Shown: one piece after another, positions 11,076 through 57,565 of the stretch
Layout of the letters: each line of letters opens with the position of its first letter
Numbering within the stretch: the stretch's first letter is position 1
Source of the DNA: Thysanoteuthis rhombus
Lineage: Eukaryota; Mollusca; Cephalopoda; Oegopsida; Thysanoteuthidae
Reading direction: 5' to 3'
Length of the DNA stretch: 64,000 bases
NCBI GenBank assembly: GCA_963457665.1
Contig: OY735215.1
Span: forward strand, 44,849,014-44,913,013
Made by a program: the position numbers and the translations under genes
Notes under the pieces: model-generated
Databases searched by the model: none
What the model saw: the letters and a program-made list of their open reading frames with translations, nothing else
Told to the model about the DNA's origin: nothing

Positions 11076-12045
11076 GAAACTCTGCGAACAGAATCTGATC
11101 CATTGCTGAGATCGTTTATTGGATTTTGAGTCCAACGCTTTAATCAATCGTCCATCACAGCCAGCAAAATTATTTGTTTCTTATCTCAATATGTAGTTAA
11201 TCTTTCCTTTGAAAATGACAATATGAACAAATCCAAGGCCTCACGAAGAAAGCCATCACAGTAAAGGGAAATACCAATTACGCGTCGGAACTTATCCCGA
11301 TAATTTTTCCGTCACTAAAAATTACACGCCACAAATTATAATCGAGGCTGTGAGGGCATTTCAAGTCCAACACCCTAACCACTCATCATCACACTACTGA
11401 CAGTTAATTCGCTGATTTCTTGATCAGTAATATATTTTTCATTTAGTAAAGATTACTCGCTTCAAATATGTATTACTCCTTGGATTTCGAGTCCAATACC
11501 TTAAACACTAACCATTACTGCACAAGGAGGAAACTTATCGTTTTTTTTGTTTTGGTTTTTTTTTTATTGTTTTTTAAATTTTTTTGACCTGACGTACATT
11601 TTACGTTTACGAAGAATTACATGCAGCGAGCTAGATTACAAACTAATGCGGGTAATACCTTTCGGTTTTCAAGTACAACGCCAATCGGCCATCAAAACAC
11701 AAACATTTAACATATTTTTTTCTGATTTTTACCAGCAGTATATTTCTCCTTTATAAAACGTGGGGAATAAGATTTAAACCAAGTTGCCTAGTTGATTTCG
11801 AGTCAAACAAATTGACCGTGTGGCCATCAAGGCGCTACTAATCAAGCTATTGTGTTCCTACATTGACCACCAGAATATCTCCACTATCACTAGAAATTAC
11901 AAGCTGCAAACAGGATCAGAATCTGAGTGCGAGTGGCCCATTGAATTGCAAGCCTAACGCCTTAACGCCTCGGTGATCAAATTTGATTAACCTATCCATC
12001 TTTCACGTGTACCTGCAGTATATGTTCCTTTACTGAAATTTACAC

Positions 12046-12126
12046 GCAGCGAACAGGTTTCTAACCTCTGCAGGTATTGCCCATTGGATTCAAAGATGAA
12101 TGACTTAACTGCTTGGCCATCACAGC
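12046..12126 (-). pseudogene. tRNA-Ser-like unit with near-intact acceptor and T stems
   Basis: It is 81 bases long, the usual length of tRNA-Ser. Acceptor halves GCTGTGA and TCGCTGC pair at six of seven positions. The A box reads TGGCCAAGCAGTTAA. The T arm AGGTTAGAAACCT pairs well, although the loop is off consensus. The anticodon arm is disrupted (CATCTTTGAATCC), so it cannot be a normal Ser tRNA. Confidence 0.65.
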
Positions 12127-12489
12127 ACCGACAACCAAGCTATACTTTTTTTTTATCTTAACCACCAGTATATTTTTCTTTACGAAAAAAATCGAACTTG
12201 TGCAGACATTGCCCATCGGATTTCAGGAAGTGCCCCTGTAAGTCCAAAGCTTTAACAATTTAGGCATAAAACCACTGACAATTAGCACATTCATTTATTA
12301 TCTTGGTTATCAGTATTTTTTTTTGTTTACTAAAAACTGCCAGCTGCTAACATGATTCAAACATGAGCGGGGTTCGCCCATTGGATTTCAATTCCAATGA
12401 CGTGACAACCCAGCCATCACAGGGTTGACAATTAAACCATACGTATTTCATCTTGATCACCAGTATATTTTCCTTTTTTTTAAAATGTC

Positions 12490-12566
12490 ATGCTACAAAC
12501 AAGATTCGAAACTGTGTATATATATTGGATTTCGAATCCAACGCCTTTACTACTCACGCATCACAG
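12490..12566 (-). pseudogene. tRNA-Ser-like unit with CGA-type anticodon loop
   Basis: The anticodon arm reads TTGGATTCGAAATCCAA on the minus strand, giving a seven-base loop with CGA at the anticodon position (serine). The T arm GTTTCGAATC is close to a B box. The variable region is replaced by a short TATATATA, and the D arm is degraded. Confidence 0.6.
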
Positions 12567-12631
12567 CTATGCAATTCAAACTCGACGTTTCCTGTCTTGA
12601 GCGTACGTATATATTTCTTCTAAAACGGACA

Positions 12632-12713
12632 CGCAGCAAACAGGATTTTAATCTGTGCAGGTGTTACCCACTGGATTACAAATCCAACCTCTTAACCGGT
12701 CAGCCATTACAGT
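12632..12713 (-). pseudogene. tRNA-Ser-like unit, full length (82 bases)
   Basis: All arms can be placed: TGGCTGACCGGTTAAGAGG (D arm), TTGGATTTGTAATCCA (anticodon arm), GGGTAACACCT (variable arm) and CAGATTAAAATCCTG (T arm). The loop no longer reads as serine (TGT), and the acceptor 5' half is mutated. Confidence 0.65.
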
Positions 12714-12986
12714 GTTGGCAGCTAAACCATAAATGTCTTATTTTGGCCATCAGAATTTTTTTAATTGAAAGTATCAAGCGACGAACGGGATTCTAACCAG
12801 TGCAGTCTTGACACATTGAATTTTGAGTCAGACACATTAACCACTTGGCTGCCAATCAGATTTTGGGCAGTTGTTATGTGATTTCAAGTACAAAACATCG
12901 GCTACTCAGACATCACAGAATTGGAATTTAACCCCTGCATGTCTTGACTTGACCATCAGTACATGTTTCCTTTATCTAAAAAATGC

Positions 12987-13050
12987 CCGCTGCGACCAGG
13001 AGACGAGCTTGGATTTTAAGGGCAATGCTTTAACCACTCGGCCATCGCAA
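12987..13050 (-). pseudogene. tRNA-Ser-like unit with perfect A box, T arm deleted
   Basis: The minus strand starts GCGATGGCCGAGTGGTTAA, an exact tRNA-Ser D-arm sequence. Most of the variable and T arms are missing, so the unit is only about 64 bases. It forms the 5'-most unit of the array in transcription order. Confidence 0.65.
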
Positions 13051-13690
13051 CACGCAATTGTATTTTTTTCTCCCCCCACACTACTGACACTTATATCATC
13101 ATCGGATTTAATCATCACCTTTTCTCTTTCACTCTCACTGTTCATACTTTGCTTTTGTCCTCTTTTTTTACCCTTTGATTTTTTATTGCACATTACACTT
13201 GGAACTATAGATGCACTGGTGTAAGTACTTTCTGTGATACTTATTTCCTTAGTTTTATGTCTTGTTTATTTGCGAATTTGTTTTCTCGTTGTTCAACCTT
13301 TCGTTGGTCCCAATTGCATGTAAATGTTAAATATTATAAGGAACATCAGATATCGCCCCTATTTAGATTACCCTGCATCTCAGTCGTAAACCACTATTCG
13401 AATTACCTATGCTGCATGCACTGAATCGGTTTAGAATTTGAGGTTAACTATCTATTTTCTTCGGCGCTATATTTACAGATTCTACGTGGTAGGAAGGCGA
13501 AAAGGTTAAACTAATTCTAAAACCGAAAGCAAATACTTAAACTATGTAGTTTTTAAATAAAATAGTGATAATATGTTCAAGTGTTTGTTGGGGTAAAATA
13601 TATGTCATTTAAACCGGCGAGGATTAAATTGTTAATGGAGGAAGAATAAAATAAGATCAAGAGAGAAATCGGATATTTTTCAAAAAGTTA
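13051..13690. other. Unassigned sequence
   Basis: A T/C-rich stretch lies at about 13060-13175; the rest is AT-rich with no recognised gene or repeat. Confidence 0.4.
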
Positions 13691-18431: not shown

Positions 18432-18870
18432 AGTTTATACAGGTCTGGTTAGTCTTTCAAGTAGAACTGTCATGTAACCAACGTTTTTCGACAGTATGCT
18501 GTGTTGGGGTTGATCAATTGAAATATTGGAAGGAGTGATTGATTTTGTAAACACTAAAGAGTCTGAATTTTCAAGAAATAAACGGGCGCAAATTAGGGAT
18601 CTGTTTAGTGTAAACTTACATTGCAAACTGAACCCTGCTCGAAAAACCCATTATGGGGATATTTTTAAAAAATGAAAAAAATGTTTTTGGTAAACATAGT
18701 ATGGAAAAATATTTAAATTTCCAGCCTCTTAGCTCTATTGGTGCAGCCTGTATCCGTAAAACATGCATGCATACATACATATATACATATATAACCAGCT
18801 GAACCGACTTGGAAACTGAAGAAACCTTTTTTGAAAGTTTTGGTGGCAGTTTTTGATTTACGGTTTCTAA
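18432..18870 (+). repeat. Dispersed repeat A, near full copy
   Basis: Starts with ACAGGTCTGGTTAGTCTTTC and contains CAGTATGCTGTGTTGGGGTT and TTAGCTCTATTGGTGCAGCC. It ends near GGCAGTTTTTGATTTACGG. Collinear with 331-760. Confidence 0.75.
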
Positions 18871-29339: not shown

Positions 29340-29666
29340 TCCAAAATTAATTCATTCTTCCATTCCCTATGGCCCTCCGTTCAACAAAATGACATTGAGA
29401 TTCATTGAGAAATTTTGAGATGTTCTGTGAACAATCAAACAGACATGGAGGGAATGCATATACCTTTGGCAGCGACCCCTCTATAAGGAGATATAGTGGT
29501 GAATTTGAAATACTAGGAGAATTTTTTTTGAGATATTGCGTGGAGTGACACGACTGAATACATATAAATACATGAAAAGAATGAAAAAAATACCTCTCAA
29601 TCGAAAAGGATTCTTGATTCCTCCCCAAATGTTAGATCTTTTGAGATGCTGTGCGAACAGTCAGAT

Positions 29667-29743
<77 letters not shown>

Positions 29744-30017
29744 TGTGTGTGTATGTGTGTGAATATAATAATCGGCTTCTTTCTCAATTTTCCCATGAAT
29801 GTTGGCATCAATAAAAAGCTCTGCATTATAAAACGCGAAATACGGTATGACTACAGAGTGTTGGTAACAATTGCGTGGATATCGCGTTGAGTAACATAAC
29901 TGAATGCATATAAATATATGAAAAGAATGAAAAAAATATCTCTCAATGGAAAAGGATTCCGGAATCCTCCCCAATAGTGAAAACTTTTGAGATGCTGCGC
30001 GGACAATCAAACAGGCA

Positions 30018-30092
<75 letters not shown>
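29340..30092 (+). repeat. Triplicated segment interleaved with long microsatellites
   Basis: Copies at 29543-29664 and 29889-30012 share AAATACATGAAAAGAATGAA, CCTCTCAATCGAAAAGGATT and TTTTGAGATGCTGTGCGAAC with few changes. A partial copy (TTTTGAGATGTTCTGTGAAC) is at 29415. The first full copy is followed by (CA)n(TA)n(TG)n at 29665-29760 and the second by (TA)n at 30020-30092. Between them, 29772-29862 matches 41283-41375. Confidence 0.8.
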
Positions 30093-39385: not shown

Positions 39386-41055
39386 GTCGACATTGTTCAT
39401 GGTTTTTATTTTTCATTGTGTTTTAACCAAAATATTACCGAAAATAGTATTTTTAGATCGGGAATAACGTTATTTGAACAAAAGTAGAAAATTTACTTAT
39501 TTAAGATAACCAATATAAAAATGGAGATATGATACATTATCGCAGATAGTCTTGTGATATCAAAGTGTAGATATTTACAAATCTTCACCATGGAAGAAAA
39601 TGGTAGCAATAATTGGAAAGTTTCCATCTTAAGATACAAATCGTTGGCAAGAATTTCACCTTTTTTTTTTTTTTTCTTTCTATCTAACGCTTTGTGGGGT
39701 ATTAAAGTCCCCTCCCATAAAAAGATGTAAAATTAAACAAAACTGTATACGCAAAACACTTTTTAATGTCTGCCTCTTGAAGCGTAAGATTAGTATTCGC
39801 AAATACATTAAGTAGCGACAGACAAACGACCACGTTATCTTTTGGTTGGTTGAAGATAAACTCACTTGCTGAAAGTCACCACCCTGTGAGAAACAAATCA
39901 TCCATAATTGGAATATGATGTCCCTTGCCAGTTCAAGGGCTTGTTGATCTGTTGATCAGGGTTGGTGTTTTCCTGCCCAAGCAATAGATACAAGAGGCGA
40001 TAGAGTGGGTTTGAAGGAGGGGAGTTGTTGGTTCAATTCGGTGTTTTGTAGTGTAAGGATCGATCCGGTGGCGGTGAAGAGTTGCCAAGTTGTGTCTGGA
40101 GTGTGCACATCTGGTGAGCCACTAATGACCACCGAGTAAAGTTTTTGGACGATTAAAATCCGATCATCCCATTTCTTTACTGTTATTTTCTCCCTTTCTC
40201 TCCATCCTTCCATTATTGTTTTTTACTTATTGATTCTCTACTTTCTCCCGTATAGATTCAAGTTCTAGAATATTCATTTTATATCCTCTCGAGTAACACA
40301 GATTAATCCCCCCTTGTAGTGGCTCAAATAACTTCTGTATGATTTTCAATGTTCTTAGATGACTTGAAAAACTATAGTATAGATTCCATTGTTGTTTTTC
40401 GTCTTGTTTTTTTCGTTGAAATGAATTTGAAAAAAAAAAAGCACACAAATTTAGAACCTGCTTACAAGAAGTTTTAAAACAAATTGCTCACTACATCTTC
40501 CATGTGAAGAGAATGGAAGGCATAAGACAAGTACTTCCTTCACTCTTTTCGGCTAGACACGACCGAGTGCAGCTAGCCCTGTGTATCTGGCTTTAAAATC
40601 CTTTTCGGTGACTCGTATCTTTTTTCTGATTCATTGTCATTACTTCTTGAATATTTTAGAAATTTTTCTTGCCTCGTCACTAGATCCTTCCTTGGTCGAT
40701 TATATCATAGTGCCATGAAAATTGTTATACCCATCTCACAATATGATTTTGAATAATAATTGTTCATCTATTTCAAATAAATGGTGAACTTTTTGCGAAA
40801 TTTAATTTTTTTTTATCCTTTTATTCCACTGAATATGATTTACATTTTGCATTTTAATGAACCTTTTATTTGCTTTTATTTTGATTTTTAATAACTAAGA
40901 ATCTAAAGGAATACAAAAAAAACATTAGTCTGCATTATGATTTGCTCACAGCTATACATGAACCGCAAACCCACGTGCGCGATATTTCTGCATCCTTATT
41001 TTGTTGCTAATTTGACCATTATTAACAGAAGATTCTTTTAGATATTTCCTAAGTT
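39386..41055. other. Unassigned, about 1.7 kb
   Basis: Poly(T) near 39661-39675 and a G-run near 39254. Short frames carry no recognised domain. Confidence 0.35.
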
Positions 41056-46974: not shown

Positions 46975-47460
46975 CCCTTCCCTGCCTCTCTCTCCCTCTT
47001 ATCCCTTTCCCCGCCTCTCTCTCTCTCTCTCTCTCCCTTTTATCCCCTTTCCCTTTCTCTCTCTCCTTCTTACCCCTTTCCCTTTCTCTCTCTTTCCTTC
47101 TTACCCCTTTCCCTTTCTCTCTCTTTCCTTCTTACCCCTTTCCCTTTCTCTCTCTTTCCTTCTTACCCCTTTCCCTTTCTCTCTCTTTCCTTCTTACCCC
47201 TTTCCCTTTCTCTCTCTTTCCTTCTTACCCCTTTCCCTTTCTCTCTCTCTCCCTCTTACCCTTTTCCCTTTCTCTCTCTCTCTCCCTCTTACCCCTTTCC
47301 CTTTCTCTCTCTCTCCCTCTTACCCCTTTCCCTTTCTCTCTCTCTCCCTCTTACCCCTTTCCCTTTCTCTCTCTCCCTCTTACCCCTTTCCCTTTCTCTC
47401 TCTCTCTTACCCTTTTCCCTTTCTCTCTCTCTCCCTCTTACCCCTTTCCCTTTCTCTCTA
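46975..47460. repeat. 31-base polypyrimidine minisatellite, about 13 units
   Basis: The unit is TTCTTACCCCTTTCCCTTTC followed by TCTCTCTTTCC. The starts at 47067 and 47098 are 31 bases apart, and further units follow with small changes (CCCTCTTACC variants of 31-33 bases). Because 31 is not a multiple of three, each repeated protein block spans three units. The 173-residue forward frame is therefore a repeat translation. Confidence 0.9.
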
Positions 47461-56010: not shown

Positions 56011-57565
56011 TTTGCCATTTTCTTTTGTTTGTGTGATCCTTCATTTTACTTCTTTTTTTTTTTAAAAAACCTTTTATGAAATCTTGATACGACGCCGGGT
56101 CTTCACTTGTTTGTTGAGGGCGACATCAGTAAAAGCAACGGGTGTTGCTATCTTTGGATCCGAACGTAAGAAACATAGCTTAATTGCTAAGCAGTTGTTT
56201 GGGAGCCGCTGATAAGTGCTAAAAGGGATTAAGCTGGAAGGAAAGATCACCAATTCTCATTTACCCACGAGTAGGTTTATTTTTCATTAGGCATAATAAT
56301 GGTATGTGGATAGCTTCAATTTTACAAGAGTCGGTGTTTGCTGAATGGGATGTGTTTATGGTCTTTGGAGGTGTTAGGTTTTACATCGGCAGGGTATGCT
56401 GAAGATCCTCCTCAGTAATTACGGTGACTCCTAATTTACATTTATTCTATTCCTGTAAAAGTTCAATTAATTTTGTCGGATCAGCTTGCCACACCGATGG
56501 ATGAAGCACGTGCATGGAAACCCAGAAAGTTATCTGATCTTGCAGGCCTACATTCATCAATATATCGAAACCAGTGGCCATTAATTGCAGAAAGTGTCAA
56601 GTGTAATGGCTGTTCATTGCAAAAAAAAGTCTTTGTCTCTTGCAAGATAACCCATTGTAAGTTATCCGTTGCAAATATCCCATTGCAAGATAAAGGCTCT
56701 GATTCACATGTAGAACTGAGTTGCTACCAATCACAATTTAACAGAAATTGAGTTAGCCATTTAACTACAGTCGATGGGTTATTCACTGACCTACAGTACA
56801 CAATTGGTTATTCTCCATTATCCTGAAAAAATTACAGATATGCAATTAAATCAGTTTTTAGAAGCTTTCCAAAAACAACATCCCCCTTTTCCTATCTTAC
56901 AGCAATGATGGGACCAAAAACACTTGACCCTAATAACATTTTGCAGTTTCCTATGACCATAAATGTATTCTCACCAATGGAGACCTTTTCCATGTTTTGT
57001 GTGGGTATCAATATACATACCTTATGTCATATTCACAGACTGATTCGTCAACCTGACCAGATCCCGGAAGAACGGTGGGACGTTGATGGGTTTCATTGGA
57101 TTGTAATGATAAACACTGGGTTAATTCCAGCTTCGAATCACCAGCTTACTTTCTACCTGTGGCGTATGCTGCTTTGTATCTTTGGTGTGCTTCAGATGCA
57201 CAAAAACGTAAAAATATTTTGGTGTATGTACAAAGCAATGAGTAATTGAGGCCTTTCTGGCATAATGTGTGGAAGGTGGTCCCGATTCTAGAAATCAGAA
57301 TGAATGGAAAACAGAATTTGGATCAGACACTATTATCACCAGATAATAGTGTCTAATTTAAACTTTGTTTTCCTTTCATTAATTTTCTTATTCCTTTTCA
57401 TATGTTCGCTGGTAATAACATTGGATGAGAGAGGGTATGAAACTTTCAAATTTACAAATTTACCACCTTCCCTACATGGTGCCAAAAAGACTTTTACTCT
57501 CCGTTGCTTTTTACAGACATTAAAATATTTCTGCGTTTTTGTGCATCCATAGCTCCCAGCAAACA
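56011..57565. other. Unassigned, about 1.5 kb
   Basis: Contains a small direct repeat near 56605-56692 (CATTGCAAGATAA-like words repeated with spacers). The 114-residue frame at 56905-57249 follows a TTTTCCTATCTTACAG splice-acceptor-like phrase but shows no recognised domain. No gene is supported. Confidence 0.35.

Follow-up and report, generated by a model that had tools for sequence, protein, structure and literature searches.

Array and units at 11082-13059

Positions 11082 to 13059 of the 64-kb stretch of Thysanoteuthis rhombus DNA analysed here (the window) carry an array of decayed tRNA-Ser gene and spacer units. On the assembly, the window spans C18:44849014-44913013. All of them lie on the minus strand, which is the sense strand, hence the numbering of the units from 13059 downwards. 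Fourteen units are delineated by an nhmmer profile that was built on five hand-cut seed units and run for three further rounds over the 64-kb window, with E <= 4.3e-9 for every unit in the last round. In the first round, the profile of the five seeds recovered nine unseen units with E values ranging from 1.1e-13 to 8.2e-5. A fifteenth body, at 11229-11292, is a heavily deleted remnant with E values of 6.3 to 8.6 across the rounds, like those of chance matches elsewhere in the window; it is counted as a unit because of its phase and of the recognisable spacers on either side, not because of its score. The original prediction of about 15 tRNA-Ser-like bodies lying head to tail on the minus strand is therefore upheld, as 14 units plus one remnant recognised by phase.

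Unit 1 (13009-13059) has an exact A box and a partly deleted anticodon and variable region. It gives the second best match to the Rfam tRNA model (24.6 bits for a cut-off of 29) and, as read from the sequence and from the Rfam match, all seven positions of its acceptor stem pair if G-U is allowed. An exact A box and a six-of-seven paired acceptor stem had been predicted in two different units; both features are present, but they belong to this single unit and the pairing is seven of seven. Unit 2 (12848-12972), made up of a spacer and a tRNA body, abuts unit 3 (12778-12849), a tRNA body devoid of 5' spacer. The intervening spacer is lost and the two anticodons are 61 bases apart. Unit 4 (12633-12765; 23.2 bits with the Rfam tRNA model) is followed by unit 5 (12492-12619), whose score with this model is the highest in the array, and by unit 6 (12343-12476). 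In unit 7 (12192-12322), the anticodon arm carries a 15-base insertion and the match stops before the 3' strand of the acceptor stem. Unit 8 (12046-12181; 19 bits) is the full-length unit closest to the majority sequence (83%). Next come units 9 (11903-12031) and 10 (11766-11882), unit 11 (11623-11751), which has a deletion in the D-arm, and unit 12 (11470-11547), in which the match stops before the T arm and the spacer is T-rich on the plus strand at about 11540-11586. Unit 13 (11335-11443), the remnant numbered 14 and unit 15 (11082-11209; 22.5 bits) complete the array.

When the remnant is left out, the successive anticodon-to-anticodon distances are 132, 61, 145, 146, 144, 165, 132, 143, 150, 129, 182, 126, and 235 bases. 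The median is 144. The period had been predicted as mostly 140-150, but only five of the 13 distances fall within this range, whereas ten fall within 126-165; the others are 61, 182, and 235.

Conventional annotation passes over the array. ARAGORN finds zero tRNAs in the window, and Rfam at its cut-offs finds nothing there. With the cut-off lifted, the Rfam tRNA model gives five sub-threshold matches between 10500 and 13800. Each falls within the array and on the minus strand, and none exceeds the 27.7 bits (vs 29) of unit 5. The prediction that no unit is intact is thus confirmed. Other sub-threshold Rfam matches (two snoRNA families and one CRISPR repeat) are far below their cut-offs and were taken as chance. 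Tandem Repeats Finder (TRF) does not call the array either, because its copies are only about 60% identical pairwise; its sole listing in this region is a T-rich run at 11535-11575. Of the 78 open frames in the window with 90 or more amino acids, 10 were compared with Pfam, some of them trimmed; they give one weak Cortexin match (E 0.0061), below cut-off.

A chance origin of the array is ruled out by the held-out units and by the statistics of the A-box-side pattern. With up to three mismatches, this 15-base pattern occurs six times in the window, four of them inside the array, vs 0.65 expected, and none of 100 shuffles reaches six. For the B-box pattern, the window gives five matches (one in the array) vs 2.1 expected, and seven of 100 shuffles reach five, which does not exceed chance.

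Beyond the array, the unit profile, which is sensitive, matches no significant unit in the 64-kb window. The best non-array match is at 40123-40164 on the plus strand (E 0.16). This segment (about 40121-40164, E 0.15-0.16 with the unit model) is possibly a lone tRNA-like relic, or a chance match. Other repeats of the window are a minisatellite at 47024-47459 (14.2 copies of a 31-base pyrimidine-rich unit, 93% matches), an inverted repeat at 57195-57547 (86-base arms, 77% complementary, 181 bases apart), and a 141-base direct repeat adjoining AT runs (29532-29672 and 29878-30018, 83% alike, 346 bases apart).

The repeated unit and its decay

Taken over the 14 units, the majority sequence has 134 positions, each with seven letters or more. 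Written twice in a row, it is folded by ARAGORN into a tRNA-Ser(TGA) with zero mismatches, and both an A box and a B box are present. The spacers also belong together. Indeed, 11 of them, 55-70 bases long as cut, align with one another; the best conserved example, at 12425-12487 on the minus strand, is one of the 11 matched by a spacer-only model (47.9 bits, E 3e-13) and is itself a training spacer. In a leave-one-out comparison, 0.746 of the 990 body cells agree, and 0.703 of the 592 spacer cells; body columns do not differ significantly from spacer columns (p = 0.16). Since bodies and spacers are both repeated and alignable, the amplified object is a tRNA gene with its flanks, in line with the prediction that whole units were amplified with body and spacer both conserved.

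Anticodons read TGA in five of the 14 units, CGA in three, CAA in two, and TAA, TGT, TTG, or TGC in one each. The statement that most units keep TGA or CGA thus holds for eight units, but not for the other six. The wobble base is T in nine units and C in five, which is compatible with a founder anticodon TGA, CGA, or a mixture. Behind the gene, TTTT is found within 22 bases of the end of the match in seven of the 15 units, a count in which the wrong place is examined where the match ends early. The aligned spacers (n = 11) show TnTTT at this position and not an unbroken T-run. A T-run terminator behind the founder gene is likely but not certain.

About 25% of the sites deviate from the majority sequence. 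If the majority is taken as the ancestor, body changes concern 41 of 96 cells at CpG sites, 114 of 420 at other C/G sites, and 82 of 474 at A/T sites. Pairing was measured at 20 stem pairs in 13 of the 15 bodies, leaving out unit 2, the remnant, and the variable arm. Pairs are formed in 0.735 of 211 cells vs 0.726 +/- 0.015 with partners shuffled (p = 0.33). Pairing is no better than under independent decay; hence, the stems broke without compensation. Neighbouring units share 0.61 identity vs 0.57-0.63 for distant ones, in pairs sharing at least 50 positions. As neighbours are no more alike than distant units, the units would have been alike when decay began. The K80 divergence from the majority is 0.31. 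With majority-rule ancestors and neutral rates assumed to lie between 2e-9 and 5e-9 per site per year, the array would be roughly 60-160 My old.

Decay is not uniform along the body. The anticodon arm is better kept, with a divergence of 0.168, about 0.095 below the rest (p = 0.013). This may come from local alignment being anchored there, and a further constraint is possible too. The better kept arm is a point in favour of decayed units that still act, giving rise to tRNA-like small RNAs or serving as a chromatin boundary. A human precedent for the latter is a tRNA tandem repeat with a 7.3-kb CTCF-binding unit, proposed as a boundary (PMC4041453). However, compensatory pairing is lacking, several units carry indels, an exact B box is found in none of the 15 units (a looser B-box pattern in two), and an exact A box in unit 1 only. 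A present activity of the units is therefore extremely improbable.

Living tRNA-Ser arrays and their spacers

The 134-base majority unit was searched for in the 2.73-Gb assembly, as the original prediction had suggested, and 39 of 650 candidates were scored. The 115 matches are in tandem arrays on C18 (11 matches, 56.82-56.85 Mb), C25 (25), and C7 (77), with one further match on C9 and one in the window. The latter corresponds to unit 8; this search recovers one of the 14 window units, and copies equally worn elsewhere would be missed.

The three arrays are living ones. On C18, ARAGORN identifies at least 83 tRNA-Ser genes (81 CGA and two TGA) in a fetched piece of 50000 bases, 5871 of which are N. 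The unit is 436 bases long and TRF counts 92.9 copies. Of the 108 ARAGORN calls on C7, 106 are tRNA-Ser (104 TGA and two GGA), with a period of about 208, and 342 of the 353 calls on C25 are tRNA-Ser(TGA), with a period of about 239. The pieces fetched from C7 and C25 start within the arrays or at their margin, their first tRNA lying at base 28 and 90, respectively, so these counts are lower bounds. C9 carries one lone tRNA-Ser(CGA) gene according to ARAGORN. The unit profile finds 93, 111, 358, and one units in the pieces from C18, C7, C25, and C9, respectively. The most frequent tRNA sequence of each array represents 38 of 83 calls on C18, 23 of 108 on C7, and 145 of 353 on C25. At five of 81 sites, the majority tRNA of the window array differs from the commonest tRNA of each living array, and it differs from the C9 gene to the same extent.

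Like the window array, the living arrays are made up of tRNA-Ser units placed head to tail, and the consensus of each has a T-run behind the gene. In contrast, their periods are near 436, 208, and 239 vs about 145, and their units are near-identical and mostly called by ARAGORN. Divergence from their own consensus is 0.016 in the body and 0.053 in the spacer on C18 (92 units), 0.023 and 0.037 on C7 (110 units), and 0.015 and 0.022 on C25 (349 units). Bodies are thus kept better than spacers, as expected of genes under selection, whereas body and spacer are worn nearly equally in the window array.

These comparisons bear on whether the window array was ever more than a satellite born from a tRNA, spread and kept as satellite DNA with units unused as tRNA genes. 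Its tandem structure, its uniformity at origin, and its selectively unremarkable present state would fit, and the living arrays are large (92.9 copies on C18). However, the window array has only about 15 units, its majority sequence is a complete tRNA, and its living relatives treat body and spacer as genes under selection do. A satellite should be long, homogeneous, and abundant; the present array covers about 2 kb, shows about 60% identity, and has a spacer matched in the window only, in a genome search of low sensitivity. A satellite origin is unlikely.

The spacers distinguish the window array from the living ones. Alignment scores of its spacer with those of C18, C7, and C25 are no better than with shuffles. 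The spacer-only model matches its 11 training spacers and zero living-array spacers. Four weak extra matches are obtained, the best at 18659-18719 of the window (12.9 bits, E 0.035) and the others with E values of 0.12, 2.7, and 3.4; these last three are in the fetched pieces, where they neither fall within an array nor adjoin the C9 gene. When the assembly is searched with the spacer, the only two matches obtained are in the window. As this search recovers two window spacers only, worn sister spacers would be missed. Intact copies sharing the spacer had been predicted elsewhere, which is not borne out: the living arrays carry other spacers, and no intact copy with the spacer of the window array was found in genome searches that detect worn copies poorly. 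The C18, C7, and C25 spacers are also mutually unrelated (p 0.35-0.59). For the flanks of the C9 gene, scores with the spacer of the window array are 20 and 19 vs 16.8 +/- 2.1 in 20 plain shuffles; with 500 letter-pair shuffles, p is 0.21 and 0.23, and the spacer model gives no match. These flanks are unrelated as far as visible.

Two closer relationships with C18 were considered and rejected. Matches of the unit search extend into the C18 spacer by as many as 29 bases, yet the spacer scores are no better than those of shuffles. The 436-base unit might also be a trimer of a 145-base unit (436 = 3 x 145.3), but no extra tRNA-like body is seen in its spacer (p = 0.18). Since its spacers are unrelated to those of the living arrays, the window array is best read, on sequence grounds, as a sister array that started from a different tRNA-Ser gene and the flanks of that gene, and not as a broken copy of a survivor.

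The same data allow us to weigh mobile elements, that is, a cluster of inserted SINEs with tRNA-Ser heads, or of TRIM-like elements whose LTR derives from a tRNA, such as Helenus. According to PMC10886601, Helenus is a TRIM in which two LTRs enclose a PBS and a PPT. It is present in bivalve molluscs, tandem arrays of one fish family are reported and, in rust fungi, predicted genes resembling tRNA-Ser-TGA are tied to it. Helenus and tRNA SINEs resemble the window array in having a tRNA-like sequence within a repeat, the window units indeed have tRNA-like heads, and the genome searches (one of 14 window units and two window spacers recovered) are insensitive to worn copies. However, these elements are mobile and dispersed and have LTRs or tails, none of which is seen for the window array. 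Unrelated spacers behind SINE heads, the alternative held out by the original prediction, did not appear; the spacers are homologous over their full length, and the units abut one another in head-to-tail phase on one strand. Moreover, 113 of the 115 genomic unit matches are in tandem arrays, the other two being the lone gene and the window, and the sensitive profile sees no unit elsewhere in the 64-kb window. Dispersed copies sharing head and body were found neither among the scored candidates nor in the window, although worn genomic copies could escape. Finally, in a figure of PMC10886601, molluscan Helenus is set beside tRNA-Lys. An origin from mobile elements is very improbable.

The assembly harbours other repeated genes. 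On C35, six tRNA-Ala genes (three TGC and three CGC) lie within 1000 bases (5808601-5809600) at a spacing of about 165 bases, and further tRNA matches are found at 5.79-5.83 and 7.58-7.62 Mb. On C43 (11.37-11.62 Mb), tRNA-Thr and tRNA-Gln are repeated jointly at kilobase spacing, which is another style of tRNA amplification. C25 also carries, at 56607734-56625492, nine equal-scoring haemocyanin domain matches in 464-aa open frames spaced by about 2.18 kb, either one haemocyanin unit repeated in tandem or an artefact of assembly. In total, the molluscan haemocyanin domain PF14830 is matched 52 times in the genome vs zero times in 14 prokaryote control genomes, and the PDB entry closest to a 301-aa reading frame is the squid protein 6r83 ('Hemocyanin subunit 1'). 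Both results point to a cephalopod genome, probably that of a decapodiform, a group having about 46 chromosomes.

Proposed birth and death of tRNA-Ser arrays

The locus is very probably a dead tandem array of tRNA-Ser genes, amplified and then decayed as a block, of which a non-coding fossil remains. Among the original readings, that of a dead tRNA gene cluster is thus favoured by the gene-plus-spacer units, the tRNA-Ser majority sequence, the lack of compensation in the stems, and the existence of living tRNA-Ser arrays elsewhere. In the scenario that we propose, one tRNA-Ser gene and its own flanks would have multiplied head to tail, giving 15 or more units with a length of about 145 bases each. 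While the array lived, its units would have been kept alike, as the star-like divergence suggests, presumably by unequal crossing-over or gene conversion acting as both amplifying and homogenising force. Selection and homogenisation would then have been lost, probably together with function, and the units would have decayed together, stems breaking without compensation, B boxes disappearing, and deletions accumulating in bodies and spacers. Because the living tRNA-Ser arrays carry other, mutually unrelated spacers, arrays would have arisen on several occasions, starting from tRNA-Ser genes that differed in their flanks, the one in the window being an array that died.

Tandem tRNA arrays have already been described in Entamoeba, plants, and human (PMC2652664, PMC12308677, PMC10701932, PMC2888827, PMC4041453), and the window array is a decayed member of this known kind. 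In Arabidopsis, tRNA-Ser/Tyr (SYY) and tRNA-Cys genes form clusters in which, as here, gene and spacer are amplified in tandem (PMC12308677, PMC10701932). The Cys cluster, which is preceded by a related pseudogene, differs in belonging to a plant, in that most of its genes pass as functional, and in its unit of about 0.4 kb; the SYY unit differs in having three genes. Entamoeba also has tRNA genes in tandem array units. However, this is a protist in which almost all tRNA genes are so arranged, with up to five per unit and short tandem repeats between genes, and decay is absent from the description in the excerpted text of PMC2652664. Clusters of adjacent tRNA pseudogenes, for example the C-C pairs of cow, come from a tRNA survey (PMC2888827). 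They were detected with tRNAscan-SE, and shared spacers are not treated in the excerpted part of that survey. tRNAscan-SE would probably miss units as worn as those of the window array. Literature searches worded exactly for tRNA-pseudogene arrays or satellites returned no paper, which speaks to the wording used in the searched literature only.

What is unusual here is the completeness of the fossil, together with living arrays whose unrelated spacers are available for comparison. tRNA gene surveys detect intact copies and near-intact pseudogenes. The present array is so worn that it eluded ARAGORN, the Rfam cut-off, and TRF, and majority rule still restores a whole tRNA from it. A profile search with body plus spacer, rather than a tRNA score, would be one way to find others. 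With the three living arrays, the dead one provides a datable case of the birth of a tRNA array and of its block-wise death. More tentatively, and with somewhat less than even confidence on our part, the tRNA-Ser supply may be ensured in this lineage by serially replaced arrays, each newly started from a single gene and its private flanks, kept uniform for a time, and dying as a block when a successor takes over. If so, the array described here would be a fossil that dates an episode of tRNA-Ser array turnover.
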